From: Deinococcales bacterium
GTDB taxonomy: Bacteria; Deinococcota; Deinococci; Deinococcales; JAAFIG01
Direction of reading: 5' to 3'
NCBI GenBank assembly: GCA_013298595.1
Contig: JAAFIG010000033.1
Span: forward strand, 1 to 48,949
DNA: 48,949 nucleotides
The notes under the pieces were generated by a model. The model searched no databases. It saw only the letters and a program-made list of their open reading frames with translations, and had not been told where the DNA came from. The first letter of the stretch is position 1. Each line of letters begins with the position of its first letter. Of the stretch, positions 1 through 24,491 are shown piece after piece. Made by a program: the position numbers and the translations under genes.

Positions 1-351
1 AGGACAACATCTTTGCTTACCTCAATTGAATTCGTATTGGTCGGTACGAGCTTGTGTTTGCCGCAAGATTGCAGGGCATAATCTGCGGATTTGGTTGGGG
101 CTATAAACCACTAGCACCCGACGTAAATTAGAAAAAATAGCAGAAAATAAATATGAATTTTTTGAGTACATTGTAAATGATAAATATTCAACAATGAGTG
201 CCGAAAAATATCGCAATGGACAGTTGTATTGAACCAATACCTGTAGTAACTTACACAACCTTTATCGCGTAATCTTGGTCTTGAGATAATTTGCCTCACG
301 CCTCAGCTTGATTTAGTTTCAATAAACTCGAGATTTTTAAAAGGTAAAGCA
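1..351. other. Left edge, no supported gene
   Basis: No frame here shows a recognisable protein. A frame open from base 2 to the stop at 104-106 could be the last 34 codons of a gene that starts outside the window, but its residues match nothing I know. The reverse-strand frames are low-complexity and have no convincing start. The segment from about 110 to 240 is AT-rich. One CTCGAG lies near 327, just before the ribosome binding site of the next gene. Confidence 0.4.
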
Positions 352-567
352 ATGAATTCATCGCTCAAACAAAAAATAATCGAAGTCTGTGCTGCAAAAA
401 TCCAGCAAAAGGGCAGTAATGTTGGTTTGTCGTTTTATGCTTTTTTCAGTAACAAAAACGATAATCCAGAACTGCTTTTGGAAGCAGCTACATGGTGGAT
501 TTCAACACAAAAGTTTGACCATTTTGAAAAAGCAGCCAAAATTAAGAAAATTGTCGAGGCTATGTAG
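352..567 (+). CDS. Small conserved protein of unknown function (possibly DUF6500-like)
   Basis: The 71-residue product has no signal peptide or membrane segment. It contains a stretch around residues 25-50 with VGLSFYAFF, NKNDNPELL and EAATWWI. That pattern reminds me of a small conserved bacterial family, possibly DUF6500, but I cannot confirm the name. The start is supported by AAAGG about eight bases upstream of the ATG. The gene ends five bases from the stop of a convergent small gene. No CTCGAG occurs inside it. No function can be assigned from sequence. Confidence 0.7.
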   Translation: MNSSLKQKIIEVCAAKIQQKGSNVGLSFYAFFSNKNDNPELLLEAATWWISTQKFDHFEKAAKIKKIVEAM

Positions 568-571
568 TCAA

Positions 572-799
572 TCAATACGTGAGATCTGCTTTAATTGTCC
601 AAGAACCTAACAACTCAATGACTCGCTGCTGATTGTGTGCAGCACGGAATCGGATGTATGGAATTGCACCAAAACGCATGCCTATTTCTTCGACTTCTCC
701 AATTTTTACAGCATCTGTTGAACGGGTTTCACCGCCACCCCGTACCGAGAAGTAGCACCATAAACCAACAAGCGAATCTTTATCCGAAGTATTTGTCAT
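572..799 (-). CDS. Small hypothetical protein divergent from padR
   Basis: This 75-residue frame begins at the ATG at 799. A TATCTT box (807-812) ends seven bases before it, matching the leaderless layout of other genes in the window, and there is no Shine-Dalgarno. The protein is soluble-looking, with a glycine-rich turn (VRGGGET) and a basic C-terminal half, and I do not recognise it. It ends next to the stop of the preceding plus-strand gene, which fits two real convergent genes. A palindrome covers its start and -10 box, and a related one lies in the padR promoter, so the two may share regulation. An unrecognised chance frame remains possible. Confidence 0.45.
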   Translation of the reverse strand: MTNTSDKDSLVGLWCYFSVRGGGETRSTDAVKIGEVEEIGMRFGAIPYIRFRAAHNQQRVIELLGSWTIKADLTY

Positions 800-858
800 C
801 TTGTGCAAGATACGCGATATTTTTTTGAAAAGTTCCCACTATCTTATTTGACAAGATA
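798..858. promoter_or_regulatory. Pair of inverted repeats, candidate PadR operator
   Basis: ATCTTGTGCAAGAT (798-811) is a perfect inverted repeat with 6-base arms. TATCTTATTTGACAAGATA (840-858) has 6-base arms and shares CAAGATA with the first copy (806-812 and 852-858, 46 bases apart). The first covers the start and -10 of the minus-strand small gene and the second covers the -35 of padR. PadR proteins commonly bind dyads in their own promoters, so autoregulation is the natural inference; binding itself is not shown. Confidence 0.5.
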
Positions 859-876
859 CATATTTGGTAATATAGT
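848..876 (+). promoter_or_regulatory. padR promoter, leaderless
   Basis: TTGACA at 848-853 and TATAGT at 871-876 are separated by 17 bases. The -10 box ends six bases before the padR ATG at 883, so transcription should start at or within a base or two of the start codon. No Shine-Dalgarno is present. Confidence 0.6.
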
Positions 877-882
877 CAAGCC

Positions 883-1218
883 ATGAACTCGAGCCAAAAA
901 CAACTCGACCTTGATTTAGTCATTCTCGCCACCCTCGAGCAAGCGCCACTATACGGACTTGAGATCATCAAAGAAGTCCAAGAACGCACCAATGGCGCAT
1001 TGGCATTCAAAGAAGGCAGCCTCTACCCAGCATTGCACCGCTTAGTCAAACTTGGTTGGGTTCTGACCGAATGGCAACCCAGCACCACTGGTGGTGCCCC
1101 GCGAAAATACTATCAACTTTCAGACAGTGGAATTAGTGCATTAAAAAAGAAAAAACTCGAGTGGAACACTATCCGCAATGCCTTAGACAGCTTAATCACA
1201 AGCATGATTGGAGTGTAG
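883..1218 (+). CDS. PadR-family transcriptional regulator
   Basis: The 111-residue protein is a single winged-helix domain of the PadR type. The family motifs are visible in order: LYGLEIIKEV (about 24-33), the recognition-helix region FKEGSLYPALHRL, and the wing PRKYYQLSDSG. The C-terminal helix is short, as in the small PadR subgroup. Such proteins are dimeric repressors that often respond to small hydrophobic or drug-like ligands. The next gene starts three bases after the stop and encodes a membrane protein of the kind often paired with PadR, so the two are probably co-transcribed. The start follows from the -10 box six bases upstream. Confidence 0.92.
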   Translation: MNSSQKQLDLDLVILATLEQAPLYGLEIIKEVQERTNGALAFKEGSLYPALHRLVKLGWVLTEWQPSTTGGAPRKYYQLSDSGISALKKKKLEWNTIRNALDSLITSMIGV

Positions 1219-1220
1219 TT

Positions 1221-1751
1221 ATGTTTAAAACTCGTCCTATAGACCGTTACATCAAACAAGCCACTGCTGGATTACCACGGCTTGAGCGCATAGATACTGC
1301 TGCTGAGTTACGGGTGAATCTAAATTTGCGTATTAAAGAATTGATGCTCGAGGGACACACTCCAGAAGAAGCTGAATTGCTGGTCGTTAAGAATATGGGC
1401 GATGCTGCAAGCACCAATCGAGCATTCATTTTCAATAGGTTTAAGTTGAGCATTGGCTGGCTTTTAGTGTCTGCGAGTATTTTTGGAGGCGCAGGATTTT
1501 GGCTATTCAAAACTTCAAACGACGCTCGATCTGAAAACCTTAACTCTTTAATAGCAGCAAGCAATATCAATGGAGAAATAACGAAAGAAACCTTAGAAAA
1601 CTTAAATAATGAGTTGTATTTTGTAAAAGTCGATGACGGTTTAGGAAACGATTTTGCAATAAATGTAACGGATAAAAGCTATTTTGGACGTAAAATTTAC
1701 TTACTTTCTGAGCAATCGAAGATACAACCTATACTCGTTTATCCACGCTAA
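1221..1751 (+). CDS. PadR-associated membrane protein, permease-prefix-like
   Basis: A 176-residue product follows padR. Residues 1-70 form a charged helical region (IDRYIKQATAGL, ELRVNLNLRIKELMLEGHTPEEAE) resembling the HAAS or permease-prefix domains that occur beside PadR regulators. One membrane segment lies at about 76-96 (IGWLLVSASIFGGAGFWLF), and an unrecognised extracytoplasmic tail of about 80 residues follows. I chose the ATG at 1221 over the longer frame because GGAG lies seven bases upstream and the longer frame runs inside padR. In known pairs the partner acts as a sensor or anti-regulator; that role is only inferred here. Confidence 0.75.
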   Translation: MFKTRPIDRYIKQATAGLPRLERIDTAAELRVNLNLRIKELMLEGHTPEEAELLVVKNMGDAASTNRAFIFNRFKLSIGWLLVSASIFGGAGFWLFKTSNDARSENLNSLIAASNINGEITKETLENLNNELYFVKVDDGLGNDFAINVTDKSYFGRKIYLLSEQSKIQPILVYPR

Positions 1752-1783
1752 AACGTTCCAAGACGTAACATTCACAAACCCTG

Positions 1784-1798
1784 TACACTCGAGGTATG
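1784..1798 (+). promoter_or_regulatory. Fused -10 / CTCGAG / start module of the P450 gene
   Basis: TACACTCGAGGTATG combines a -10 box (TACACT, 1784-1789), the CTCGAG palindrome (1788-1793) and the ATG at 1796. The -10 box ends six bases before the start, which implies a leaderless transcript. GAGG is too close to the ATG to act as a normal ribosome binding site. Three other genes in the window share this arrangement. Confidence 0.5.
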
Positions 1799-3028
1799 CA
1801 AAACGTTCCCGAATACCATCTCGAGATTAACGATCCTGATTTCCTGCGTAACCCATACCCGCTGCTTGAGGATTTACGCAATACCAAACCTATTTTTTGG
1901 GATGCTGCTTGGAAGAAACTCTGGTTTTTACGGTACGAAGATATCTCGAGTTTGTTACGTGATAAGCGTTTAGGTCGGAGCATTTTTCATTTACTCTCGA
2001 GGGATGAGCTTGGTTTTCCTGCACCTGATCCGCGTTTAACAGCGTTTGATGCTTTTCAGAAGAATCATATTTTGGATATGGAACCGCCAAATCATACGCG
2101 AATTCGGGGTTTGGTTCAAAAGGCTTTCACACCGTCACGAGTGGAAAATTTACGGCTTAGGATTCGGCATTTAGTGGCGCAGAGTCTCGAGGTGTTGCCG
2201 AATTCCTTTGATGCAGTTCGTGATTTTGCTGAGCCTCTGCCCGTAACAGTCATTGCTGAACTTTTGGGTGTGCCAGAAACCGACAGGCATTTGTTGCGTC
2301 CGTGGAGTTCAGCAATTGTTAAATTATACGAACTTGGTTACTCAGACATCCAAGCTGAAGCTGGTAATAACGCCGTACTTGAGTTCTCGAGTTATATCAA
2401 AGATTTAGCTACTAAGCGGCGGCAAATGCCTCAGGATGATTTGATTACTGCACTGGTGCAAGTCGAAGAAGCTGGTGAAAAACTCAATGCCGATGAACTT
2501 GTAGCAAACTGCATTTTGTTCTTAAATGCTGGGCATGAAGCAACAGTCAATGGTTTAACTTCGGCATTACTGGCATTGCATCATCAGCCAGAAGCAAAAG
2601 CCGAGTTGATAACTGCGACTCGAGAACCTGATACCGCGAAAATTTGGCAGACCGCCGTGGATGAACTGCTGCGTTTTGATACACCATTACCAATGTTTGA
2701 ACGTTGGGTGCTCGAAGATTTTGAATTCCAAGGTGTGGTATTAAAAAAGGGGATGGAACTAGGGTTTTTCTATGCCAGTGGCAACCGCGACCCTAATAAA
2801 TTTATCAATCCAGACAAGATTTTACTGACTCGAGAACCCAACCAGCACCTGACTTTTGGGCTTGGTACGCATTACTGCATTGGTGCACCATTGGCTCGGC
2901 TTGAAATGGGTGTGGCATTGCGGGCTTTCCTTGAGAAATTCCCAAATTACAGCATTCCAGAGCAACTGCTCGAGTACAGTGGTTTTGTGATTCGGGGATT
3001 AAAAAAGCTAGAAGTGATTAGCTCCTAG
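1796..3028 (+). CDS. Cytochrome P450 monooxygenase
   Basis: This is a 410-residue soluble bacterial P450 of normal length. The I-helix motif AGHEAT is at 245-250, the ExxR pair is E290-R293, and the haem loop FGLGTHYC ends in the axial Cys361. The residue after the I-helix acid, usually Thr, is Ala249 with Thr250 behind it; some bacterial P450s such as EryF lack the Thr and rely on the substrate for proton delivery. The substrate is unknown. No ferredoxin or reductase gene is adjacent, so electrons must come from proteins encoded elsewhere. The gene follows the PadR pair by 44 bases but has its own promoter-like box. Confidence 0.95.
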   Translation: MQNVPEYHLEINDPDFLRNPYPLLEDLRNTKPIFWDAAWKKLWFLRYEDISSLLRDKRLGRSIFHLLSRDELGFPAPDPRLTAFDAFQKNHILDMEPPNHTRIRGLVQKAFTPSRVENLRLRIRHLVAQSLEVLPNSFDAVRDFAEPLPVTVIAELLGVPETDRHLLRPWSSAIVKLYELGYSDIQAEAGNNAVLEFSSYIKDLATKRRQMPQDDLITALVQVEEAGEKLNADELVANCILFLNAGHEATVNGLTSALLALHHQPEAKAELITATREPDTAKIWQTAVDELLRFDTPLPMFERWVLEDFEFQGVVLKKGMELGFFYASGNRDPNKFINPDKILLTREPNQHLTFGLGTHYCIGAPLARLEMGVALRAFLEKFPNYSIPEQLLEYSGFVIRGLKKLEVISS

Positions 3029-3031
3029 CTT
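3001..3031 (-). terminator. Terminator of the SodC/CHRD-like gene
   Basis: Arms AAGCTAG (3005-3011) and CTAGCTT (3025-3031) form a 7-bp stem. Read on the minus strand, the stem is followed by a run of six T. It lies just downstream of the minus-strand secreted protein gene and overlaps the last codons of the P450. Confidence 0.6.
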
Positions 3032-3051
3032 GGCTGGTTCGTAGGCGTGAT

Positions 3052-3531
3052 TTAGTTTTCAGAAGTGAGTGTGGTTGCGTTACCACAAGCAATATAATCT
3101 CCGATTGGACGAGGTTTGTTGGAGTGAATGTTAAAGTACAACTTGCTTTTGGGTAAATTTGGTAGTTCAGTGGCAGAAATAAGCGTGTAATTTACAGCGT
3201 TACCTTTTGCATCAGCAACAAGATTTTTAAAGCTAATGGCATCTTCGCCATTTTGGGCTTCGCAAGTTGGGTCAGCAACTTGGTTACTAAAATGCAAGTG
3301 ATTAGCGTAAACACCAGAATTTGGTTGCAATCCCGAAATTCGCACATAAACTTCGTGATCGCCACTTGGCAATGTGACAAAGACCATGTTGGCTTTGACA
3401 TTTGGATTGTCCTTGTTTCCAAGCGCTTCGGCGTACATGACTTTACTTTGATTACCATGTGCAATGGCTACCATACTGACCGAGAGGGCTGTGATGAGTG
3501 TGACTCCGACAAGAGCAAAAACTTTTTTCAT
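3052..3531 (-). CDS. Secreted SodC/CHRD-like protein
   Basis: The 159-residue protein has a clear signal peptide (residues 1-24, MKKVFALVGV to VAIAHG) and should be exported. The mature part recalls the Cu/Zn superoxide dismutase fold. ANHLHF provides a His-x-His pair, and Cys in DPTCEAQNG plus Cys in YIACGNAT match the positions of the SodC disulfide. The usual zinc loop and full copper ligand set are not visible; only one further His (FNIHSN) is obvious. It is therefore better called SodC- or CHRD-like than a proven dismutase. GGAGGTAAC ends just before the ATG. A stem with a T run lies downstream. No CTCGAG occurs in this gene. Confidence 0.7.
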   Translation of the reverse strand: MKKVFALVGVTLITALSVSMVAIAHGNQSKVMYAEALGNKDNPNVKANMVFVTLPSGDHEVYVRISGLQPNSGVYANHLHFSNQVADPTCEAQNGEDAISFKNLVADAKGNAVNYTLISATELPNLPKSKLYFNIHSNKPRPIGDYIACGNATTLTSEN

Positions 3532-3615
3532 TGTTACCTCCGATCAGGTATACGTATGAAAACACTGTCTTGGATGCGGTAATTATGACTTTTTAGTGAC
3601 AGAATAAACACCAAT

Positions 3616-4632
3616 TCATGACTCGAGATAAATGACTTGTCCTGTTTTGCTGGATTGATAACTGGCGAGTGCCACTTGCAAACCTGCAAATCCGTCTTGC
3701 CAAGTAATTGGCACAGGTTTTTGCTTGCTAACAGCTTCGAGAAAAGTATTCAGCATGGCTCGAGTGGCATCTGCACCATAACCCAACCAATTGGTGGCTC
3801 GAGTGGTGTTTTTGGAGTACAGGTTAACTCTGTTGGCAAAGCCGTCTATTTCAAAAGCAGCATTTTCCAGATAAATCTCGAGTTTTAGGTGTCCCCAGCG
3901 TGGGTAAACTCCGACTGGGCGACTCCAAGAAGAATCTGAACTGGTAATGACTCGAGTTTCGTTGGTACCAAGTGTCATAGTGATAAATCCTGCGCTATCA
4001 ATGTCTAATTCTGGGTAGAACGGGTTGCTGATTTCGGCTTGTACACTCGAGACTTCTAAATTTAACAACCATCGGTATAAATCTGTTAGATGCACAGTAT
4101 GATCCATAATCGCGCCACCACCAGCCAGTTGTTTATTGGCAAACCATGCTTGGCGATACATTGGGTTTTCAGCATGGTTAATTCCAACAATTCCCAAAAC
4201 TTTACCAAGTTTGGGTTGCTCAAGTTTTTGTTTAAGGGTCATTAAATTGGGGTCAAATCGCATGGGGTACGCGGTCATAAATTGGACGCTAGCTTGTTCA
4301 CATACCTCGCGCATTTTTATGGCATCTTCAAGGGTAGTAGCAATTGGTTTTTCGCAAAGGATATGTGCTCCCGCTCGAGCTGCCAGTGTGACCAGTGGTA
4401 GATGCAAAGCCGTTTCAGAACATATAATCACAGCGTCAAGTCCTTGATCTATTAAGGCACGATGGGTTGCAAAATGCTTTAGACCTGATGTTTCAACAAA
4501 TTTCTTGGCAGCTTCGGAATTGTTTTGTGAAAATCCAACAACCTCGAGATTAGCAGTGGTTCTTAAAATTTCCGCAAAACCATCAGCGTGGACATGAGCT
4601 GTACTGAGAATACCAATTCGTAAAGGTTTCAT
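3616..4632 (-). CDS. Gfo/Idh/MocA-family oxidoreductase (first copy)
   Basis: The 338-residue protein has an N-terminal NAD(P)-binding domain and a C-terminal substrate domain. CEKPIATTL (about 93-101) carries the catalytic-Lys EKP motif. The dinucleotide loop is atypical, RIGILSTAHVHADGF in place of GxGxxG, which suggests an altered cofactor site or a subfamily feature. GGGAIMDHTVHLTDL supplies the conserved Asp and His region. Its ATG overlaps the TGA of the upstream homologue by four bases, so the two are translated together. Being divergent from a sugar ABC transporter, they probably oxidise or epimerise the imported sugar derivative; the substrate is not deducible. Confidence 0.9.
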   Translation of the reverse strand: MKPLRIGILSTAHVHADGFAEILRTTANLEVVGFSQNNSEAAKKFVETSGLKHFATHRALIDQGLDAVIICSETALHLPLVTLAARAGAHILCEKPIATTLEDAIKMREVCEQASVQFMTAYPMRFDPNLMTLKQKLEQPKLGKVLGIVGINHAENPMYRQAWFANKQLAGGGAIMDHTVHLTDLYRWLLNLEVSSVQAEISNPFYPELDIDSAGFITMTLGTNETRVITSSDSSWSRPVGVYPRWGHLKLEIYLENAAFEIDGFANRVNLYSKNTTRATNWLGYGADATRAMLNTFLEAVSKQKPVPITWQDGFAGLQVALASYQSSKTGQVIYLES

Positions 4633-5624
4633 AGGTTGACCACCAATCCTGTTTGCAGGGATTCTCGAGCGGCTAAAGCTAACTTCAGGGCTTTCATGGC
4701 ATCGTTAGCAGTAACAGCAAATGGTGTATCCGTCTCGAGTGCATTTTTAACATGTGCGATTTGCGAATGGTACGGGTCGGCACCTGCGCTCAGGTCTGGC
4801 ATTCCCACGCCTGCACTTGCTTCAGATGCTGTCGCCAAGAAACTCATCACAGCGGGGTTATCATCCGAACGCCACTCGAGTACGCCTGCTGAACCTGCAA
4901 TATCAAATCCTGTGCGAAAAATGCCTGCTGGATATGCCCAAGCTCCCTCGAGATGGGCAATAACCCCAGACTCAAAACGTAAGGTTACAATGACCACATC
5001 GCTTTTGATGTCGGCATTGATGGCTCGAGTGCTGCGGGCAAAAACTCGAGTCACCGTTCCAGCCTTGGCATTTTGGGCGTACCATAAGGCTGTATCAAAA
5101 TCGTGAATCATTAAATCTAAAACCACGCCACCTGAACGCTTTTCATCAAGAAACCAATTATCCGTAAGTTGAGCGGGCAATTGCCCAGCTCGTTTGAAAC
5201 GCATGGTTCCTAAACTGCCAATTTCGCCTCGAGCAATGCTGGCGGCAGCCGTTTGATATTGCGGAAAAAACCGTACTACATGGGCAATAAAAAGTCGGAC
5301 ATTAGCTGCTTGGCAGCTATCAAGCATCGCTTGAGCATCTTTAATGGTTAAAGCAATTGGTTTTTCGCAGACCACATGTTTACCTGCTGTGGCAGCAGCT
5401 ATGGTCAACTCGAGATGTTGCGGTGTTGGCACACAAATATCTACAACATCCACTCGTTCAAGCATTTCCTCGCGTGTACACACAGCACAATTGTATTGCG
5501 CTGCAAGGGTTGCCGCATGGTCTATTTTGTTATCGAGTACAGCTGTAATTGTCGCTCCAGCAGCCTGCCAAGCTGCTAAATGCACTGTTCCCATCAGCCC
5601 TAAGCCGATCACACCTACTCGCAT
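4629..5624 (-). CDS. Gfo/Idh/MocA-family oxidoreductase (second copy)
   Basis: The 331-residue protein starts with a standard Rossmann loop, VGVIGLGLMG, and has the EKP motif in VVCEKPIALT. The substrate domain contains GGVVLDLMIHDFDTALWY, with the usual Asp-His pair. The start at 5624 is set by GGAGG seven bases upstream; the open frame continues a further 318 bases, but that extension has no family similarity and runs into the divergent gene. It is the first gene of a two-gene operon with the homologue at 3616. About 90 bases separate it from the divergent solute-binding protein, so both directions are likely controlled from one spacer. Confidence 0.93.
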   Translation of the reverse strand: MRVGVIGLGLMGTVHLAAWQAAGATITAVLDNKIDHAATLAAQYNCAVCTREEMLERVDVVDICVPTPQHLELTIAAATAGKHVVCEKPIALTIKDAQAMLDSCQAANVRLFIAHVVRFFPQYQTAAASIARGEIGSLGTMRFKRAGQLPAQLTDNWFLDEKRSGGVVLDLMIHDFDTALWYAQNAKAGTVTRVFARSTRAINADIKSDVVIVTLRFESGVIAHLEGAWAYPAGIFRTGFDIAGSAGVLEWRSDDNPAVMSFLATASEASAGVGMPDLSAGADPYHSQIAHVKNALETDTPFAVTANDAMKALKLALAARESLQTGLVVNL

Positions 5625-5715
5625 GCAAACCTCCGAAGATTTTCTTAGTATACCGATTTGCGTTCTTGTCAGGCAGCGCAGTAGACTTTGTGCAACACAA
5701 TTCATGGAGGCTGTT

Positions 5716-6975
5716 ATGAAGAAATCGGCAACGGTGGCTTTTTTACTCGCAAGTGGCGCTCTACTCGGAGGTTTAGCATTATCGCAAGATAAAAGCAAAA
5801 TCTCAATTGAGTCTTGGCGCAACGACGATCTCAAAATTTGGCAAACACAAATCATTCCAGCATTCAATAAGAAATACCCAAATATCGAAGTGGTTTTTGC
5901 ACCCAGTGCACCAACCGAGTACAACGCTGCACTTGATGCCAAATTACAAGCTGGTAGCGCAGGTGATTTAATTACTTGCCGTCCATTTGATAAGAGTCTC
6001 GAGTTATTTCAAAAACAACAATTGGAGGCTTTGGATAGCCTAAAAGGCATGAGTAATTTCTCGAGTGTGGCAAAAAGTGCTTGGCAGACCGATGATGGTA
6101 AAAATACCTTCTGCGTACCGATGGCAAGTGTGATTCATGGCTTTATTTACAATAAGAAGATCTTTACTGAGTTAAAACTTGCACCACCAAAAACCGAAGC
6201 TGAATTCTTTGCTTTGCTCGAGAAAGTCAAGAAAAATGGTAAGTACTCACCGTTGGTCATGGGTACCAAGGATCAATGGGAAAGTGCCACAATGGGTTAT
6301 CAGAACATTGGACCAAATCACTGGGGTGGCGAAGCAGGTCGGCTTGGTTTAATTAAAGGTACTGCCAAGTACAACGTTGGTGGTTTCTTAAAGGCTTTTG
6401 AATCCTTGGCAAAATGGAAGAGTTACTTACCAAAAGGCTATCAAGCTGTCGCTTACCCAGATGCTCAGAATTTATTTAGTCAAGGTAAAGGCGCAATTTA
6501 TCCAGCTGGTTCTTGGGATATCAGCACGTTCCGCGCTGCCAAAATGGATATTGGTGCGTTTAAACCACCAGCACCAACTGGTAGCAAAAAATGTTATATC
6601 TCCGATCACACTGATATTGCCATGGGCTTAAATGCTGCCAGCCCTAACAAAGACGCAGCAAAAACTTTCCTCGAGTGGATGACCACCGACGAATTTGCCA
6701 GTATTTACGCCAATGCTTTGCCTGGTTTCTTTAGTTTAAATAGCAAAGCCAAAGTCAAACTTTCCGACCCTGTTGCCCAAGAATTTGTGTCTTGGCGTGA
6801 CCAATGCGACAGCACCATTCGCAGTGCATACCAAATTTTATCTCGAGGTACGCCCAATAACGAAAATGATTTATGGGCTGCCAGTGCCGCTGTACTCAAT
6901 GGCACAAAAACCGCTAAACAAGCAGCGGATGCTGTGCAAAAAGGTTTGGAGAGTTGGTTTAAACCAATGAAGTAA
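5716..6975 (+). CDS. Carbohydrate ABC transporter solute-binding protein
   Basis: The 419-residue protein belongs to the UgpB/MalE-like extracellular binding proteins. It has a signal peptide (MKKSATVAFLLASGALLGGL, cleavage probably after ALS) without a lipobox Cys, so it may be released or free in the periplasm. The opening of the mature part (ISIESWRNDDLKIW, IIPAFNKKYPNIEV) is typical of family 1 sugar binders. GGAGG five bases before the ATG at 5716 fixes the start; the much longer frame from 5344 lies inside the opposite gene. Two permeases follow, but no ATPase gene is present, so a shared MsmX/UgpC-type ATPase elsewhere must energise the system. Confidence 0.93.
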   Translation: MKKSATVAFLLASGALLGGLALSQDKSKISIESWRNDDLKIWQTQIIPAFNKKYPNIEVVFAPSAPTEYNAALDAKLQAGSAGDLITCRPFDKSLELFQKQQLEALDSLKGMSNFSSVAKSAWQTDDGKNTFCVPMASVIHGFIYNKKIFTELKLAPPKTEAEFFALLEKVKKNGKYSPLVMGTKDQWESATMGYQNIGPNHWGGEAGRLGLIKGTAKYNVGGFLKAFESLAKWKSYLPKGYQAVAYPDAQNLFSQGKGAIYPAGSWDISTFRAAKMDIGAFKPPAPTGSKKCYISDHTDIAMGLNAASPNKDAAKTFLEWMTTDEFASIYANALPGFFSLNSKAKVKLSDPVAQEFVSWRDQCDSTIRSAYQILSRGTPNNENDLWAASAAVLNGTKTAKQAADAVQKGLESWFKPMK

Positions 6976-6992
6976 TTGTACTGAGTTGACTG

Positions 6993-7023
6993 CCCTCCCC
7001 CGTGATTTTGGGGGAGGGTTTTT
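6993..7023 (+). terminator. Intra-operon terminator after the binding-protein gene
   Basis: CCCTCCCCC (6993-7001) and GGGGGAGGG (7010-7018) form a 9-bp G/C-rich stem with an 8-base loop, followed by TTTTTC. It sits between the binding protein and the first permease. Leaky termination here would give more binding protein than membrane subunits, a common stoichiometry control in such operons. Confidence 0.85.
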
Positions 7024-7036
7024 CTAAAAGGATTCA

Positions 7037-7948
7037 ATGCAAAAACGTTTTCCAACACAAATTCTGGTTTTCACTGCACCTGCTGTGCTGATTTACAGCG
7101 TGTTTATGATCTATCCTTTGTTTGATACTTTGCGATTATCCTTATTTGCAATGGGTATTGATTTTAAAACACATTTTGTTGGACTCGAGAATTACCAGAA
7201 ATTATTAACTGATGAACGCCTTGCCCCTGCACTCTGGAATGCAATTGGCAACAATGCTATTTTTTTTATCATTCATATGTTGTTGCAAAACCCAATTGGT
7301 TTAACCTTAGCAGTTTTATTAAATGGCAAATTGCGTGGCAAAACTGTGTACCGTACCCTAATTTTTATTCCAACGGTTTTATCTGTGGTTCTGGTTGGTT
7401 TTTCATGGCGTATGATTTTATCACCAATTTGGGGCATTGCTGAATCTGCTTTAAATCTTTTTGGCTTAAAAGAAGCTTTTCAACCTTGGCTTGGTCTCGA
7501 GCAATCAGCCTTGATTACGGTTTCTTTAATTAGTGTTTGGCAAAATGTTGGCATCCCCATGATGCTGTTCTTAGCAGCATTGGTTCGTATACCAGAAGAA
7601 TTTCTCGAGGCAGCTCGGGTGGATGGTGCAAGTGCTTGGGTGATTTTTTGGCGCATCCAATTTCCATTGTTATTACCTGTAGTTGGAATTGTTTCAGTTT
7701 TAACCTTTGTTGGTAATTTCAATGCTTTTGATTTGGTCTACGCATCACAAGGTGCTTTGGCGGGTCCGAGTTTTAGTACCGATTTACTTGGCACTTTGTT
7801 TTACCGAACTTTTTTTGGTTTTCAATTACAAAGCGGGAATCCTTACCTTGGAGCCAGTGTAGCAGGGATTATGCTACTCCTCATTTTGGGTGGTTTATTG
7901 CTGTACTTGGTTACCGTGCAACGCCGAATCGAACAGGTGGAATTCTAA
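7037..7948 (+). CDS. Sugar ABC transporter permease, UgpA/MalF type
   Basis: The 303-residue polytopic protein has six predicted membrane segments. Its EAA loop, EEFLEAARVDGASAWVIFW, docks the ATPase. Length and order match MalF/UgpA-type permeases of binding-protein-dependent carbohydrate importers. AAAAGGATTC precedes the ATG. The stop overlaps the next start (TAATG), so the two permeases are translationally coupled. Confidence 0.95.
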   Translation: MQKRFPTQILVFTAPAVLIYSVFMIYPLFDTLRLSLFAMGIDFKTHFVGLENYQKLLTDERLAPALWNAIGNNAIFFIIHMLLQNPIGLTLAVLLNGKLRGKTVYRTLIFIPTVLSVVLVGFSWRMILSPIWGIAESALNLFGLKEAFQPWLGLEQSALITVSLISVWQNVGIPMMLFLAALVRIPEEFLEAARVDGASAWVIFWRIQFPLLLPVVGIVSVLTFVGNFNAFDLVYASQGALAGPSFSTDLLGTLFYRTFFGFQLQSGNPYLGASVAGIMLLLILGGLLLYLVTVQRRIEQVEF

Positions 7949-8775
7949 TGCCTCGAGTCCATTGGAATGTACTTGCTGTTCATGCAGTACTCCTTTCCTA
8001 TACGGCATTAACCCTCTTTCCAACGCTTTTAATGATGCTAAATTCGGTCAAAACTCGAGAAGCTATTTTCTCGAATCCACTGGCGTTACCAACACCTAGC
8101 ACACTCGATTTTATTGGTTATCAAACAGTTGCCAACAGTGCCCGATTTGATTTGTATTTCTTAAATAGTTTAATTGTTACACTTGGTTCTTTAGCTGTCA
8201 TTCTCTTTGCCTCGAGCGGCGCTGCATGGGCTTTGGCACGCTACCAATTTGCTGGGAATACTTTGCTAGGTTTGTATTTATCCATTGGCATTATGGTACC
8301 AATCCGGTTAGGTACCATTAGTCTCCTCAAAATGATGGTGGCATTAAAACTCACCAATACACTCTGGGCATTAATTCTGGTTTACAGCGCCAGTGGTATT
8401 CCCTTAGCGGTTTTTATCCTGACCCAATTTTTTAAGCAAATCCCTCGAGAACTCGAAGATGCTGCCAAGATAGACGGGGCAAATGATTACCAAATTTTTT
8501 GGCTGTTGCTACCACTGGTACGCCCTGCACTGGGCACAGTGGCAGTTTTTAATATGATTCCTATTTGGAATGATCTATGGTTTCCACTCATTTTAGCTCC
8601 AAGCGAAAGTAGCAAAACTGTTGTTCTAGGAGCACAAATTTTCTTAGGACAATTTATCAACGATTGGAATGCGATTCTTGCAGCTTTAACCTTAGCTGTT
8701 TTACCAATTATGGTGCTTTACATTATTTTCTCGAGACAATTGATTCGTGGTTTGACCCAAGGTGCTATAAAATAA
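7948..8775 (+). CDS. Sugar ABC transporter permease, UgpE/MalG type
   Basis: The 275-residue protein is the second permease of the importer. It has six membrane segments and the EAA loop PRELEDAAKIDGANDYQIFW. Its ATG shares bases with the previous stop. The transporter needs an ATPase encoded outside the window. The -10 box of the following gene lies in its last codons. Confidence 0.95.
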   Translation: MPRVHWNVLAVHAVLLSYTALTLFPTLLMMLNSVKTREAIFSNPLALPTPSTLDFIGYQTVANSARFDLYFLNSLIVTLGSLAVILFASSGAAWALARYQFAGNTLLGLYLSIGIMVPIRLGTISLLKMMVALKLTNTLWALILVYSASGIPLAVFILTQFFKQIPRELEDAAKIDGANDYQIFWLLLPLVRPALGTVAVFNMIPIWNDLWFPLILAPSESSKTVVLGAQIFLGQFINDWNAILAALTLAVLPIMVLYIIFSRQLIRGLTQGAIK

Positions 8776-8779
8776 ATTC

Positions 8780-9376
8780 ATGGCAAAAGCAGCTATTCTG
8801 GAAACCACTGAACAATTCACACCAGCCTCCAGAGGCAATTGGCGAGCTTGGCTTGAAAAAAATCATGCAATAAAAGAACGAGTTTGGTTGGTTTTTTATA
8901 AGAAAGCCACAGGTAAAAAAACGCTTTCCTATGATGAAGCTGTTGAAGAAGCGTTGTGTTTTGGTTGGGTGGATTCATTGCCAAGAAAACTCGACAATGA
9001 GCGCCATATGCTGTTAATCACGGTTCGTAAACCAAAATCGCCGTGGTCTGGGTTAAACAAAACTCGAGTCGAAAAATTAATAGCCAGTGGTTTAATGACA
9101 GCGGCTGGTCTAGCAAAAATTGAAATTGCTCGGCAAAACGGAGCTTGGGAATCGTATGACGCTGCCGAGGAATTACTCGAACCAGAAGATTTAACAATTT
9201 TACTCAATGCCAATGCAGCAGCTCGAGCCAATTGGGATGCGTTTGCACCATCGGCTCGTAAAGGCATTTTATTTTGGCTAAGCACTGCTAAACGTGATGA
9301 AACACGGCAAAAGCGTTTGCTCGAGATTGTTGAAAAAGCAGCCGTGAATATCAAAGCTAATTTTCCTCGTCAATAA
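8780..9376 (+). CDS. YdeI/OmpD-associated family protein
   Basis: The 198-residue cytosolic protein matches the YdeI family. LSYDEAVEEALCFGWVDSL (about 53-71) is the family signature and the C-terminal part contains FAPSARKGILFWLSTAKR. Homologues are linked to bacteriocin or peptide tolerance in some bacteria, but no biochemical role is firmly known. TAAAAT at 8768-8773 ends six bases before the ATG, so it can be transcribed on its own as a leaderless mRNA although it lies four bases behind the permease gene. Its end overlaps the convergent nuclease gene. Confidence 0.88.
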   Translation: MAKAAILETTEQFTPASRGNWRAWLEKNHAIKERVWLVFYKKATGKKTLSYDEAVEEALCFGWVDSLPRKLDNERHMLLITVRKPKSPWSGLNKTRVEKLIASGLMTAAGLAKIEIARQNGAWESYDAAEELLEPEDLTILLNANAAARANWDAFAPSARKGILFWLSTAKRDETRQKRLLEIVEKAAVNIKANFPRQ

Positions 9377-10341
9377 AAAATTATATTAACTGAGTCAACT
9401 TGCAAACCTAACTGAATTTCTTTTTGTTTTAGGACATCACTGAATTTTATTTCTCGAGTACCAACTCGAATTTGATCATTTTCAATACCTTTGTCGGTTT
9501 GTAAAAACTCAATAAATGATTGTGTGGTTTCCTTCTTCTCGAACGCTTCAAAATATGTTTCGAGTCTACGGTAAAGTTTTGGATGAATTAATGTACCTGT
9601 TTCTCGAATAGCTTCACGGTTAGGAATTAAAAACTTGGCGCTTTGGTCAATCTGCCAGATGCCCCTATTTTCAACTCGGGCTTTTTCAATGATTCTTTGA
9701 AACTTAGCTCGATGGCTTGGCGGCATTGTGTTATAAAACTCTGGAAATGCCAAGCTCTTTTGCAAAAGCTGATAATTCAGGCTTTTTTCAAGCCAATCTG
9801 GTTGAATAATGGTTGTTTGGGCAGCACTATTCCAATCCTGTTCTCGAAAAACATAAGCAATTGGACGACCATTGTTAAAACCAATCGCAGCTTTGCTTAG
9901 CAACACACCGCGAGTTCGTCTAGGTTCAGCATTGCGAACTTGTTTGCCTAATTTCGTGTATTCAATATTTGTAAAGCCCAAATATGAAAGCGTAAAATCT
10001 CGGGCTTCCTTTCCTAGTGGTTGCCGTTTACCAGAATTACCAAATTCTGGTGTATCAATTCCTTCAAACCGCAGTTGAACACTATTCTTTTTGTTTATAT
10101 CGTCTTGGTTTTGGTTACTTTTTGTATCAAGGAACTCTTGATGAATATATTTAGCATTCTCGAGTGAATCCCAATCTTTGATATTATCGGCTATAAATCT
10201 GACACTATCACCATCAGGTTCATAGTCTTCGATGACAAATGCACCACGAATGATTGTGTATAGACTTGAATCTGGCACATCAGCGGGTCTTGCCAAAGCA
10301 AACATTGTCAAGAAAACCAGCAGCGCAACGACAAATTTCAC
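9370..10341 (-). CDS. Secreted staphylococcal-nuclease-like protein (paralogue 1)
   Basis: This protein of about 323 residues has a hydrophobic export signal (KFVVALLVFLTMFALARPA) and an SNase-type domain. The catalytic set of staphylococcal nuclease is recognisable: Asp in PDGDSVRF, Arg-Asp-Glu in LRFEGIDTPE, and the second Arg in NGRPIAYVF. An insert of about 30 residues lies between the first two strands (DWDSLENAKYIH onward), and an unassigned C-terminal extension of about 120 residues follows. It is likely an extracytoplasmic Ca-dependent nuclease. I prefer the GTG at 10341 because the longer frame overlaps the divergent gene and would bury the signal peptide. A paralogue with the same layout is at 35914-36930. 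Confidence 0.82.
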   Translation of the reverse strand: MKFVVALLVFLTMFALARPADVPDSSLYTIIRGAFVIEDYEPDGDSVRFIADNIKDWDSLENAKYIHQEFLDTKSNQNQDDINKKNSVQLRFEGIDTPEFGNSGKRQPLGKEARDFTLSYLGFTNIEYTKLGKQVRNAEPRRTRGVLLSKAAIGFNNGRPIAYVFREQDWNSAAQTTIIQPDWLEKSLNYQLLQKSLAFPEFYNTMPPSHRAKFQRIIEKARVENRGIWQIDQSAKFLIPNREAIRETGTLIHPKLYRRLETYFEAFEKKETTQSFIEFLQTDKGIENDQIRVGTREIKFSDVLKQKEIQLGLQVDSVNIIFY

Positions 10342-10404
10342 TCCGCTATAAGCATAACAGACTTGAGAACCCAATTCAATTGTTTTGCATGTTAGCCTGA
10401 GGCA

Positions 10405-11328
10405 ATGCAGCAAACTTCAGCGCAAAAACCAACCACAACGCAATTCATTACCATTTTAGGCATTGGTTTACTGGCTGTTTGTTGTGCTTCAATTTTCATT
10501 CGCTTAGCCAGAGAAAGCACAGGCTCGAGTAGTGCTTTTATTGGTGTGTTTATTGCTTTTGCTCGAATTACTGTGGCAAGTTTAGTGACTGTACCTTTAG
10601 GGTTTTTTGCTATTCGTAAAGAAAAACCTTCTCGAGAAGCCATTCGATTGGGTGTTTGGGCAGGTGTAGCTTTGGCTTTGCATTTTGCTTTTTGGATCTC
10701 GAGTTTATCCTTTACCAGTATTGCTGCGAGCACAACCATTGCCACAACCAATCCGATTTGGCTGAGTTTATGGGCTTGGTTGGTCTGGAAGCAACCGCCA
10801 AGTACTCGAGTACGTTTTGGTGTTGCTGTGGCGTTTCTGGGTGGTATTTTGGTGGCATTTGGTGATACTGGTGGCTCGAGTCAGGCAACCAATCCATTAT
10901 TGGGGAATTTTTTGTCGTTACTTGGGGCTTTCTCAGTTTCTGCTTATTATTTGTTGGGTCAGGCAGCCCAAAAAGCTGGGTTGAGTATCACTGCCTATGC
11001 AGGTGTGGCATATGGCATGGCAGCATTGGTTTTACTGCCTTTACCTCTGATTTTTTCAGTGCCTTACACTGGTTATCCACTCGAGGCGTACTTTTGGTTG
11101 TTGCTGCTGGGTTTGATTCCACAATTAATTGGTCATACCAGTTTTAATTGGGCAGTCAAATTCTTAGCGCCCACCACGGTCACAATGGTGATTTTGCTCG
11201 AGCCTGTTGGTAGTGCCATTTTGGCAATCACTGTTTTTCGTGAATTACCAAGTTTCCTGACAGCCTTGGGCGCGAGTGTTTTACTTTCTGGTGTTTTTAT
11301 TGCTGTTTCGGAAAAACAAAAAAGCTGA
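10405..11328 (+). CDS. EamA/DMT-family transporter
   Basis: The 307-residue protein has ten predicted membrane helices arranged as two EamA repeats, including WISSLSFTSIAASTTIATTNPIWL in the first half and TTVTMVILLEPVGSAILA in the second. Drug/metabolite exporters of this type export amino acids or other metabolites; the substrate is unknown. TGAGGCA lies immediately before the ATG but is close for a ribosome binding site. The gene is divergent from the nuclease gene, with 63 bases between the starts. Confidence 0.9.
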   Translation: MQQTSAQKPTTTQFITILGIGLLAVCCASIFIRLARESTGSSSAFIGVFIAFARITVASLVTVPLGFFAIRKEKPSREAIRLGVWAGVALALHFAFWISSLSFTSIAASTTIATTNPIWLSLWAWLVWKQPPSTRVRFGVAVAFLGGILVAFGDTGGSSQATNPLLGNFLSLLGAFSVSAYYLLGQAAQKAGLSITAYAGVAYGMAALVLLPLPLIFSVPYTGYPLEAYFWLLLLGLIPQLIGHTSFNWAVKFLAPTTVTMVILLEPVGSAILAITVFRELPSFLTALGASVLLSGVFIAVSEKQKS

Positions 11329-11375
11329 CATGCCAATGACACCAGTTGCTCTTGAGAATGCGTCATACTAGCGTC

Positions 11376-11897
11376 ATGGATTTAACTGCTTTTCGTCTCG
11401 AGAAAGATCAATTTTTTGTATCGCGTCATTCACCACTACCCAATAGCTTAAAAGCGGATTTTAAGGGTTTGCAGTATTTTGGTGAGAATACTGCACTGCG
11501 TTTTTCTTTGTTACTCGAGCCAGATATCAATCAGGAAGTTACTATTATGCAAACCAGTAACGGTTCTGAACGAGTTTATCAGCGTTTAGGTTGGATCACT
11601 TTTCCTGTTAAAGGCAGTGTTTGCCGCTTAGCGCTTTTTGTGCCAGAAGGTCAGCTCGAGGCAACAGAGGTCTTTATTCCTTTTCGGGATAGTACCAGTG
11701 GCAACCAAACATATGGTGCTGGACGGTATCTCGAGGCGGAAATTCAGCACAATATCGTTCAACTCGATTTCAATTTAGCGTATAACCCTTATTGTGCCTA
11801 CGCAGATGGTTGGGCTTGTCCTGTGCCACCACTCGAGAATTGGTTACAAGTGGCTATCGAAGCTGGCGAAAAAACCTTTGGAGTACACCATGATTGA
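11376..11897 (+). CDS. DUF1684 protein
   Basis: The 173-residue protein is a DUF1684 member. Signature blocks are FIPFRDSTSGNQTYGAGRYL, LDFNLAYNPYCAYA and CPVPPLENWLQVAIEAGEK. No signal peptide or membrane segment is seen and no activity is established for the family. I start at 11376 since CATACT (11364-11369) ends six bases upstream; the frame opens ten codons earlier without support. The stop lies inside the start of the TPR gene (8-base overlap), so the two are coupled. Confidence 0.88.
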   Translation: MDLTAFRLEKDQFFVSRHSPLPNSLKADFKGLQYFGENTALRFSLLLEPDINQEVTIMQTSNGSERVYQRLGWITFPVKGSVCRLALFVPEGQLEATEVFIPFRDSTSGNQTYGAGRYLEAEIQHNIVQLDFNLAYNPYCAYADGWACPVPPLENWLQVAIEAGEKTFGVHHD

Positions 11898-12690
11898 CCA
11901 AAACACTGCGATTGCCGATCTGAAACGCAACTTAGAAACACATCTCGAGAAATACGAATGGGAAGCAGCTCTTGGTAAAGTTCGAGCACTTGAACTGGTT
12001 AGTCAACGCGACCTCGATCTCGAGCGAGCATTATTGTTAATCATTGATTTTATGGACGCACTACGTGCCAAAAATTATGTAGGAGCAACAAAAACAGCCA
12101 GAGAAGGTTGGAAAGAAAAACTGTATATTGTCCTCGAGGGGTTAGATGAAGCCCTTGAAGCTTTACAGCAAGCCGAGCAAAACTGGCGCACCAGCGAAAC
12201 CGCTGTCAGAAATGCACTCAAGAAAGCTTCACAACACATCCTGACTCGAGGTGAAGCCGAAAACCAAATGGGTGTACTCGAAGCGATTATCGAAAACCGC
12301 GATGCCGCTCGAGGGCATTTTCAAGCTGCTTTAGGTGCAGACCAACGGCATTACCGTGCCATGACTAACTTAGGTAATCTTGAACTGGAAGCAGGTAATT
12401 TTGCCGAAGCCGAGATGCGTTACCGCGAAGTAATTCGTTTAAATCCAGATTACAGTGTTGTTTACAATAACTTAGCTGCTGTGATGAAAAAACAAGGCAA
12501 ACGTAGTGAAAGTGTTACGTACCTCAAAAAAGCTCAGCAACTAGCAGTACGCGAAGTTCGAGGCGACACTCGAGGCACCAATATTGGCAAAATCAAAAAC
12601 CCTGCTCTTGATTGGCTAGGTAACCCCAAAGCACGATGGGGTATTGCTATTGCTGTACTGGTAATCGCCTTTTTAATCTCGAGACGTTAA
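11890..12690 (+). CDS. TPR protein with C-terminal membrane anchor
   Basis: The 266-residue protein is mostly helical. Residues about 1-150 are charged and coiled-coil-like, two clear TPR repeats follow (HYRAMTNLGNLELEAGNFAE and SVVYNNLAAVMKKQGKRSES), and a membrane helix (WGIAIAVLVIAFLI) ends in basic residues. It should sit on the membrane with the TPRs in the cytoplasm and act as a scaffold; partners are unknown. It overlaps the DUF1684 gene by eight bases, so the ATG at 11890 replaces the longer open frame. Confidence 0.82.
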   Translation: MIDQNTAIADLKRNLETHLEKYEWEAALGKVRALELVSQRDLDLERALLLIIDFMDALRAKNYVGATKTAREGWKEKLYIVLEGLDEALEALQQAEQNWRTSETAVRNALKKASQHILTRGEAENQMGVLEAIIENRDAARGHFQAALGADQRHYRAMTNLGNLELEAGNFAEAEMRYREVIRLNPDYSVVYNNLAAVMKKQGKRSESVTYLKKAQQLAVREVRGDTRGTNIGKIKNPALDWLGNPKARWGIAIAVLVIAFLISRR

Positions 12691-12734
12691 AGCGTAGACT
12701 GATTAACTACAAAAAAGTCAGAACTAACTTTCTC

Positions 12735-13835
12735 TCACAGCTTCTTTTGAAAAATGCGGTAACGCTTGTATGGAATAGCACCGAGTGCCTTCATACCATT
12801 GTTAATGCCATCATTACTCTCGAGAGTCCAGCCGAATTCTCCGCTCGAGTATTTACTTTTGCCTCGCCACCAAGTCTCGGCATAGAGTAAGGCATCTAAG
12901 CCGCGTCCGTGGTATTCATCTAAGATACCAAGGGCAATCAGGCGCATTCTGGTGTATTTAAAAAATTGTAACTTAAAAACACCAAATGGTAAGAGCTTAC
13001 CTCCTGTACCTGGTAGGGCTTGGTTTAAATCTGGAAGAACAAGACTAAAGGCGACTGGTTTACCTTCAATTTCTGCCATAAAGCTAATTTGCTGATCGGC
13101 AACTTGTCCAAGTTGTTTTTTCAAATGATCTATTTCAGCTTCTGTCCAAGGCACAAAACCCACATTACTTCTCCAAGCGCTGTTATAAATTGCCCGCAAA
13201 TGCACAACTTCTTCGTTCAGTTTCTTAAAGTTTAATGGACGCAAAGTCACTTTCAGATTTTTCTTGACCCGCTCAGCAATCCGCCCAACTCGCTCAGGTA
13301 AGCCTTGCTCGACTGTCATCTTCCATGCAAATGTGTCCTCGTACTTGCTATAACCCGCTGCTTCAGACCAAGCAATGTACTCAGGAACATTGTAATTCAT
13401 CATTAAAGCGGGTGGGTCATCGTAGTTATCTACCAAAAAACCGTGCATATCGTTTTGGGCAATTTTACTTGGACCTTTGATAGTATCCATACCACGTTGT
13501 TTGCCCCAAGCTTCAACTCGCTCGAGTAAAGCTTTGAAAACTTCGATAGTTGCCGCCTCGAGACAGGCAAATAACACGGTTTTTTCGTTGCGGTATTGAT
13601 TAAAACTCTGATCGACAATCGCAGCGATACGTCCAACAACCGCGCCATTCTCGAGGGCTAAGAAAAGTTCGATATCTGAATGATCAAAAAAAGGGTTTTT
13701 CTGCGGGTCTGTGTCAGCCCATTCTTGAATCAGTAATGGAGGAACCCATGTTGGATGTGAACGGTACTTCTGGTATGGATATTCTATCCAGCGTTTACGG
13801 TCGGCTCGAGATTGTACACTTGCGATTTGCATCAT
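12735..13835 (-). CDS. GNAT-fold acyltransferase-like protein
   Basis: The 366-residue protein belongs to a long GNAT-like family of unknown substrate. KGPSKIAQNDMHGFLVDNYD and the C-terminal LDEYHGRGLDALLYAETW and GEFGWTLESNDGINNGMKALG are characteristic; the second resembles an acetyl-CoA pyrophosphate loop. It is soluble. TAGATT ends seven bases before the first of two adjacent ATGs, consistent with leaderless expression. Confidence 0.78.
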   Translation of the reverse strand: MMQIASVQSRADRKRWIEYPYQKYRSHPTWVPPLLIQEWADTDPQKNPFFDHSDIELFLALENGAVVGRIAAIVDQSFNQYRNEKTVLFACLEAATIEVFKALLERVEAWGKQRGMDTIKGPSKIAQNDMHGFLVDNYDDPPALMMNYNVPEYIAWSEAAGYSKYEDTFAWKMTVEQGLPERVGRIAERVKKNLKVTLRPLNFKKLNEEVVHLRAIYNSAWRSNVGFVPWTEAEIDHLKKQLGQVADQQISFMAEIEGKPVAFSLVLPDLNQALPGTGGKLLPFGVFKLQFFKYTRMRLIALGILDEYHGRGLDALLYAETWWRGKSKYSSGEFGWTLESNDGINNGMKALGAIPYKRYRIFQKKL

Positions 13836-13852
13836 GGTCTACAATCTACTAT

Positions 13853-13889
13853 AAATTTCGAGTTTTTTTGTTTTGCACTCGAGAAATTT
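13853..13889. repeat. CTCGAG-containing hairpin in a divergent spacer
   Basis: AAATTTCGAGT (13853-13863) pairs with ACTCGAGAAATTT (13877-13889), except for two unpaired bases. A T-rich loop separates the arms. The element lies between the divergent starts at 13835 and 14086. It could be an operator or a degenerate terminator; nothing else is recognisable in this 250-base spacer beyond TAAAAT at 14075-14080. Confidence 0.5.
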
Positions 13890-14085
13890 CTTTGTTAGGC
13901 ATTTTTCAACTTCTGTGCCAAAACCTTATGATCTGGGGTAAAATAGTATTTATTGCTTTTAGGACAATATTTACTCGATTAAGGCTAGCATTGGGTTACA
14001 GATTCTTCGATGTCATATTATTTAGCCTTTGACAGTTTGACGCAATTTTCGCACACAAATCCTGAAAGCATGAGTAAAATAGCGT

Positions 14086-15276
14086 ATGTTCCTATACGCA
14101 TCTCGGCGGATACTTGGCATGATCCCAATTCTCATGTTTGTGTCAATGGCAATTTTTGGGTTAATCCAATTACAACCAGGCGACTTTCTCGATGAACTCA
14201 AACTGGGAAATCCGAAAATCACCCAAGCAGACATTCAACGCTTACGCCGCGAATACGGCTTAGACCAACCTTGGTACGTGCAATATGGCAAATGGGTATC
14301 TCGAGCCGTGCGGTTTGATTTTGGTTTATCTCGAGAAAATGGGTATGTTCCTGCTGCTGAATTTGTTTTTGATCAGCGGCTTGGTAATACAGTCACTTTA
14401 TCTTTAACAGCTTTTGTTATTGCTTTGGTGATCGGTATTCCTGTAGGGATTTACGCTGCTGTCAAACAATATAGTTTACTTGATTACATCACCACTTTTT
14501 TATCGTTTGTTGGTTATAGCGTACCTGTGTTTTGGTTAGGCATCATGATGCTGATTTTATTTGGTGTGACTTTTAAAGTATTTCCCACAGGTGGGATGCA
14601 ATCCGAAGGGGTTACACCGTATATCGAAAGTAGTGAAAAATTCCCTGCCACAGGACAAGTCAAAAAACTCGAGACCCGAGATGGGCGCAGTGTGATTACC
14701 CTAGCGATTTACAATGAGGTTGCCCAAAAAGATGAACCCAAAGAATTTATTTTACCTGCCGATATTCAACCCAATGTGGTGGTTGATGATTACGTTTCTG
14801 AAGGGCAAGCCATTGGTCAGCGGATGACGTTTAACTCATGGTTAGCTTGGCTTTTAGATCGTTTGCATCATCTTATTTTACCAGCCGTTGCTTTATCTGT
14901 GATTTCAATAGCTGGTTGGACACGTTTTATGCGAGCCAGTTTACTCGAGGTAATTAATCAAGATTTTGTTCGTACTGCCAGAGCCAAAGGTTTAGCTGAA
15001 CGAGTGGTTATTTACAAACATGCTTTACGTAACGCACTGATTCCTATTGTCACTTTGGTTGGATTATCTATTCCTGGCATTCTCAATGGAGCGGTTCTGA
15101 CCGAAACTGTTTTCAATTGGCCCGGCATGGGCACAGCACTTTTAGATAGTGTGATCAAAAAAGATTATAACGTCGCTATGGTCATTCTGATGTTACTTGC
15201 CATTGTTACTTTGGCGGCTAATTTACTGACCGATTTAGCATATGCGTTCGTAGACCCACGCATTCGCTATAACTAA
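14086..15276 (+). CDS. Peptide-type ABC transporter permease (DppB/OppB-like) with extracytoplasmic insert
   Basis: The 396-residue protein is a DppB/OppB-like permease. The family ends are intact (LYASRRILGMIPILMFVS at the N-terminus, the ARAKGL loop, NWPGMGTALLDSV near the C-terminus). Typical members have about 310-340 residues. The excess is one block at about 172-248, after WLGIMMLILFGVTFKVFPTGG and before LLDRLHHLILPA. The block has no membrane helix and includes ILPADIQPNVVVDDYVSEGQ, which recalls a beta-barrel or lipoyl-like turn, so it should form an extra domain outside the membrane. TAAAAT ends five bases before the ATG. No binding protein or ATPase is adjacent. Confidence 0.93.
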   Translation: MFLYASRRILGMIPILMFVSMAIFGLIQLQPGDFLDELKLGNPKITQADIQRLRREYGLDQPWYVQYGKWVSRAVRFDFGLSRENGYVPAAEFVFDQRLGNTVTLSLTAFVIALVIGIPVGIYAAVKQYSLLDYITTFLSFVGYSVPVFWLGIMMLILFGVTFKVFPTGGMQSEGVTPYIESSEKFPATGQVKKLETRDGRSVITLAIYNEVAQKDEPKEFILPADIQPNVVVDDYVSEGQAIGQRMTFNSWLAWLLDRLHHLILPAVALSVISIAGWTRFMRASLLEVINQDFVRTARAKGLAERVVIYKHALRNALIPIVTLVGLSIPGILNGAVLTETVFNWPGMGTALLDSVIKKDYNVAMVILMLLAIVTLAANLLTDLAYAFVDPRIRYN

Positions 15277-15301
15277 TTCTCGAGATTGTTAAAGGATAAC
15301 T

Positions 15302-16483: not shown

Positions 16484-16485
16484 TC

Positions 16486-16965
16486 ATGGCTGAATTAACC
16501 CACTTTAAAGATGGTACACCTGTTATGGTGGATGTCTCGAGTAAAGCAGTTACCATGCGAACAGCCACTGCCGAAGCAATTATCTGGCTACCAGAAGCAG
16601 CTCGAGCTGCCCTTAATGCTGGTGGTGTGGGTAAAGGTGATGTGCTGGCTGTGGCACAACTGGCTGGGATTATGGGTGCAAAACAAACCGCTAACCTGAT
16701 TCCACTGTGTCATCCGCTTAGTCTCTCGAGCGTAGAAGTGCAATTAACTCGAGTGATAGATGGTGTACGAGTCCAAGCAACAGCCAGAACCGCCGCCCAG
16801 ACTGGGGTCGAGATGGAAGCATTAACCGCTGTTAGTGTGGCAGCATTAACGGTGTATGACATGCTCAAAGCTGCCAGTAAGGGCATTGAGATTCGCCTTG
16901 TGCGTTTGCTCGAGAAAACAGGTGGCAAAAGTGGAGATTGGCAGGCAAACCAAACAAATTTATAA
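16486..16965 (+). CDS. moaC: Cyclic pyranopterin monophosphate synthase MoaC
   Basis: The 159-residue protein is full length for MoaC, which converts the MoaA product into cyclic pyranopterin monophosphate in molybdenum cofactor biosynthesis. Diagnostic stretches are [15 protein letters not shown] and [20 protein letters not shown]. It starts two bases after the permease gene and is probably read with it, though other moa genes are absent here. Its last six bases overlap the convergent hisB end. Confidence 0.96.
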
Positions 16966-17544: not shown

Positions 17545-17548
17545 AGGC

Positions 17549-18616: not shown

Positions 18617-18705
18617 AGCTGCATCGTAACACCATCGCCTCACGACATTTGACATGGGTAGGGGTTTGTCGCAATACAAGCTACAACTGCGCTATGCTAC
18701 GTCGC

Positions 18706-19644: not shown

Positions 19645-19667
19645 CAAACCAATCTAATAAAACGGTT

Positions 19668-20857: not shown

Positions 20858-20880
20858 GCTTAACAATCATTGTACGCCAA

Positions 20881-21606: not shown

Positions 21607-21634
21607 CCGAGCATTATGGCATTTTTAGCAGCCT

Positions 21635-24488: not shown

Positions 24489-24491
24489 TTA

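Follow-up and report, generated by a model that had tools for sequence, protein, structure and literature searches.

Do gene starts in which the hexamer CTCGAG is fused to the -10 box form a class of promoters of their own? The question is raised by four genes in a 48,949-nt stretch of DNA (the window), which is part of a 4.58-Mb MAG of 45% GC (labelled G000). The nearest named relatives of its DnaK are from Deinococcales MAGs, which places the genome in Deinococcota. For this analysis, the complete sequence was read for 849 kb of G000 (18.5%), with 748 genes called and their starts taken from a simple caller; whole-genome counts come from pattern searches. The MAGs compared are 91-94% complete: G001 (a sister species), G002 and G003 are relatives in the same family (f1), and G012 is a CTCGAG-rich genome outside f1. 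The labels Meiothermus-like and Thermus-like, which do not come from record titles, are our own, assigned from size and grouping.

Four fused starts and the leaderless -10 box

The four starts in the window are the following.

1784..1798, + strand: -10 box TACACT (1784-1789) overlapping CTCGAG (1788-1793), then GT and ATG (1796) of a cytochrome P450 ORF; TACACTCGAG-GT-ATG
19668..19682, + strand: -10 box TACTCT overlapping CTCGAG (19672-19677), then GT and GTG (19680) of an OsmC-like ORF; TACTCTCGAG-GT-GTG
36928..36942, - strand: -10 box TATGCT overlapping CTCGAG (36933-36938), then TT and ATG (36930) of a thermonuclease-like ORF (nuclease 2); TATGCTCGAG-TT-ATG
46739..46754, - strand: -10 box TAGACT overlapping CTCGAG (46745-46750), then GTC and ATG (46741) of an FKBP-type PPIase; TAGACTCGAG-GTC-ATG

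An earlier note on this DNA had described these TAnnCTCGAG-spacer-start arrangements, and all four were found where it had placed them. The spacer, which it gave as 1-3 bases, is 2, 2, 2 and 3 bases long at the four sites, and a spacer of 1 is absent from the 849-kb sample. The region at the thermonuclease-like ORF lies 15 bp past the stop of an upstream NUDIX-like ORF.

The further claim that TAnnCT is a real -10 box is borne out. In the 849-kb sample, TANNNT has a sharp maximum at positions -13, -12 and -11 relative to the start codon, in 229 of 748 genes (~30%). The consensus is TANACT, 54% of the boxes having C at position 5 and 58% having A at position 4, and the last T stands 6-7 bases ahead of the start codon. 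The leaderless -10 motif TANNNT is a known promoter type of Deinococcus-Thermus (PMC12340547, PMC3160421), and the boxes seen here resemble it in sequence and in position before the start codon. This likeness supports a predicted start codon at about +1, that is, leaderless transcripts of the known Deinococcota type. The one difference is that a fraction of the boxes ends in a copy of CTCGAG, with no sign of this mattering. In small samples from relatives, some of them poor in CTCGAG, a C at position 5 is frequent as well, and thus the C belongs to the promoter.

A palindrome repeated across the genome

The earlier note, although correct about the sites, overlooked the background of CTCGAG against which they stand.

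1..48949, no strand: highly iterated palindrome CTCGAG, 288 copies by count, one per 169 bp on average, both inside and outside coding sequence
23393..24512, no strand: longest CTCGAG-free gap in the window by CTCGAG spacing, 34% GC, with hypothetical ORFs at 23491-24051 and 24051-24488

Only 5.1 copies of CTCGAG would be expected in the window. The whole of G000 holds 27,159, or one per 169 bp, amounting to 3.6% of its bases and 58.8x the dinucleotide expectation. The three further members of the family that were sampled carry 26,600-28,200 copies versus 4-9 of the reversed control, GAGCTC. One genus of a second (sister) family has 21,868 CTCGAG and 25 GAGCTC, and another genus there has 683 and 1,525; the excess is intermediate in Meiothermus-like genomes and lacking in Thermus-like ones. 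A HIP-like palindrome is common to the whole family and to part of the sister family, at 5,900-7,400 copies per Mb in the carriers. The flanks of the 288 copies in the window are near background composition and are not conserved, which rules out an extended motif beyond CTCGAG. The gap at 23393-24512 is probably recently acquired DNA.

Is the fusion special?

CTCGAG has a similar density in coding (5.98/kb) and non-coding (5.27/kb) DNA. Whether fusion at starts exceeds chance, the check that the earlier note had proposed, hinges on whether the position-5 C of the box is counted. Measured against the frequency of CTCGAG and that of TANNNT at starts, there is an excess: 20 of 226 start-proximal TANNNT boxes (8.8%) hold an in-register CTCGAG, versus 98 of 4052 other non-coding TANNNT (2.4%; Fisher p 2.5e-6). 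This counts in favor of the reading that the fused CTCGAG has a function in a group of leaderless genes, as part of their promoters or as a methylation switch. Among boxes ending in CT, however, 20 of 121 (16.5%) are fused, versus 98 of 906 other non-coding TANNCT (10.8%, p 0.07) and 585 of 3648 coding TANNCT (16.0%, p 0.90). A marginal excess over non-coding TANNCT remains (p 0.055-0.07) and can be claimed for a promoter element, whereas the equal rate within genes speaks against one. With the box's own C counted, little or nothing of the fusion is left that needs explanation.

Comparison with relatives points the same way. CTCGAG is missing from all three G001 orthologues of fused promoters that were examined, nuclease 2 of the window included, although two of the three retain an in-register -10 box; among 30 TANNCT leaderless-type promoters of G001-G003, relatives equally rich in CTCGAG, a single one is fused. 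The functions of the fused genes are mixed, which also argues against a shared switch. The absence from all three orthologous promoters makes a role as promoter element or epigenetic switch unlikely, and with the other observations we regard such a function for the fused boxes as highly improbable. Thus, neither the suggestion that CTCGAG marks promoters or the +1 region nor the suggestion that it places them under epigenetic control is supported, and a promoter-specific role was dropped after conditioning on TANNCT and checking orthologues.

The four fused starts would instead be an incidental overlap of two independent genome-wide features, the leaderless -10 box and the hyperabundant CTCGAG: in a genome so full of CTCGAG, when a -10 box ends in CT, that CT often belongs to a copy. 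This explanation, taken jointly with the existence of a HIP-like element, we consider very probable. The promoter observation itself is ordinary; the genome-wide repeat, not the four promoters, is the real phenomenon, and it is apparently undescribed. For Deinococcota, no report of it was found in the open-access literature searched, including searches for CTCGAG with Meiothermus or Deinococcus and for HIP1 with Deinococcus.

Avoidance of other palindromes

Other GC-rich six-base palindromes stand at 0.07-0.24 of expectation in family f1 and G012. For instance, AGGCCT, CGGCCG, GGCGCC and GGGCCC are wholly absent from 832 kb of G000, and GGCC was seen 35 times in the G000 sample versus 2,583 expected. 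GGCC is also nearly absent in G001 and G003 and near normal in G012, independent of CTCGAG. The idea that CTCGAG-free gaps are islands with normal palindrome content was ruled out, since GGCC is avoided in the gaps too. Across 11 Deinococcota samples, which are related and so not independent, CTCGAG per kb and the observed/expected ratio of other palindromes correlate with rho -0.91. Like the CTCGAG carriers, a few cyanobacterial loci avoid other GC-rich palindromes (0.39); a Bacteroidota set shows no such depletion (0.94).

Protein imprint, retention and spacing of copies

In G000, 57% of genic copies sit in the Leu-Glu frame, and 66% of Leu-Glu pairs are encoded as CTCGAG. Leu-Glu is over-represented 2.39x, versus 0.99 for Glu-Leu; the excess is 1.9-2.4 in CTCGAG-rich relatives and 1.06 in a Thermus-like genome. 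The excess in G000 and its rich relatives indicates a process that overrides protein sequence. Ser-Ser (1.6x) and Arg-Val (1.33x) are also enriched in G000 coding sequences, which is the effect that CTCGAG should have in the two remaining frames.

Such forcing of amino-acid changes, with sites in all contexts, would be in keeping with a biased mutation or mismatch-repair process that makes CTCGAG without any benefit; the model of Elhai for HIP1 is of this type. Transition neighbours of CTCGAG are enriched 2x, a mark of decay and mutational turnover that fits the same process. One-step neighbours show no general depletion, contrary to what strong conversion would leave. Copies are also retained: at 70% identity, 57% of CTCGAG sites persist in G001 versus 17% of matched 4-GC hexamers, 3.4 times better, and 40-43% persist in G002 and G003 versus 12-14% of control hexamers. 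This persistence speaks against a process without benefit, although a drive that recreates the site could also give it. A purely biased process is plausible, though less likely than not.

Copies also exclude one another locally. Spacings below 20 bp occur at 0.13-0.63 of expectation. With the amino acids fixed, the fraction of Leu-Glu pairs written as CTCGAG is 23% with another copy less than 12 bp away, 38% where it is 12-20 bp away and 76-78% at distances of 60-200 bp; the contrast between a copy within 20 bp (33%) and one at 60-200 bp (77%) has p 2e-54. No such short-range exclusion is seen for control hexamers or for Leu-Glu pairs written otherwise than as CTCGAG. Most other carriers show the exclusion in a weaker form, mostly below 20 bp. 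Since the CTCGAG fraction is flat beyond 60 bp, copies are locally exclusive and gaps are not preferentially filled. Helical phasing was considered and rejected, there being no 10-11 bp periodicity.

Methyltransferases of the carriers

Methylation is a standing idea for HIPs, and cyanobacterial HIPs accompany cognate methyltransferases (PMC4390886). By analogy with what has been proposed for HIP1, CTCGAG could be the site of a resident DNA methyltransferase whose marks direct mismatch repair or regulate promoters. Five Pfam families were searched (C5, beta-class, Eco57I/gamma-class, HsdM-type and D12), and six DNA methyltransferase genes were recognised in G000. A gamma-class adenine methyltransferase at C11 (L193:2821-5236), with a distant likeness to M.TaqI (TCGA), favors this reading. 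That protein, however, has no close orthologue among 111 genomes of the phylum, and the C5 methyltransferase is found only in G000, G001, G012 and G095. Within the five families, and in MAGs that are 91-94% complete, no methyltransferase group spans the CTCGAG-rich G000, G001, G002, G003 and G012; a conserved cognate enzyme is not apparent within this scope. An XhoI-family endonuclease (PF04555) was found in none of 12 genomes, in a search without any positive control. Taken together, the methyltransferase explanation seems unlikely.

Several of these loci have features of their own. The C5 cytosine methyltransferase of G000 (C15, L203:3408-5746) shares 59-74% protein identity with those of G001 and G012, and in G000 and G001 it is followed by a conserved gene for a 403-aa RlmKL-like methyltransferase-domain protein. 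The beta-class methyltransferase (C34, L206:3650-5496) adjoins a NotI-family restriction endonuclease, and the two apparently form a complete type II system. The M.TaqI-like gene has a 304-aa neighbour without a Pfam match.

Relation to known repeated sequences

To our knowledge, descriptions of highly iterated palindromes (HIPs) have so far been confined to cyanobacteria. CTCGAG fits this descriptive class, being over-represented genome-wide and present in coding and non-coding DNA, as HIP1 (GCGATCGC) and the alternate HIPs of cyanobacteria are in genic and intergenic DNA. It differs in phylum, in sequence, in its length of 6 bp and in density, most cyanobacterial HIPs occurring at about 500-2,500 per Mb (Elhai), and in that no cognate methyltransferase common to its carriers was found in the five Pfam families searched. 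HIP1 proper is excluded by sequence, and its core, CGATCG, is itself avoided in G000 (0.16x). CTCGAG of Deinococcota is best called a variant of the HIP kind, outside cyanobacteria. The same hexamer is the site of XhoI/PaeR7I restriction-modification; here, however, the site is enriched rather than avoided.

Thermus and Deinococcus are naturally competent, which could be taken in favor of CTCGAG being a signal for DNA uptake or self-recognition that transformation has spread. Strong over-representation is likewise a trait of uptake sequences (PMC1939737), and those of Neisseria and Pasteurellaceae share with CTCGAG both genome-wide over-representation and mutational near-matches. They are, however, longer, non-palindromic and much sparser, with a non-palindromic core and a conserved flank, whereas CTCGAG is a palindrome with no conservation past its six bases. 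One copy per 169 bp is several-fold denser than uptake sequences are. An uptake role is very unlikely.

A possible reader of CTCGAG and its meaning

The mutual exclusion seen at synonymous codons, the lasting retention of copies and their price in altered proteins would fit best with a small per-copy benefit through a reader protein, or with biased repair. CTCGAG would arise and be kept across the chromosome, even where this alters the proteins encoded, and copies would exclude one another locally over some 20-40 bp. A putative protein shared across the lineage, binding or repairing DNA in a sequence-specific manner, would read it. Each copy would be slightly advantageous, while a second one inside the footprint of the reader would bring no extra benefit. 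The existence of such a reader is put forward tentatively, at somewhat less than even probability; local exclusion could reflect the manner in which copies form as well as binding, and the flat fraction beyond 60 bp and the weaker exclusion in relatives also count against it. The wider picture would be of a second, independent HIP system in Deinococcota, a CTCGAG code without a conserved methyltransferase, with a putative reader protein, strong enough to double Leu-Glu across the proteome and tied to the removal of almost all other GC-rich palindromes; this, too, is plausible while falling a little short of probable.

The density of CTCGAG could help in recognising acquired genes and in the binning of MAGs. 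The exclusion of neighbouring copies at synonymous codons provides a measurable sign of copies interacting, and a denser HIP case in another phylum, with close relatives poor in CTCGAG, allows methylation, repair bias and protein binding to be tested against one another.
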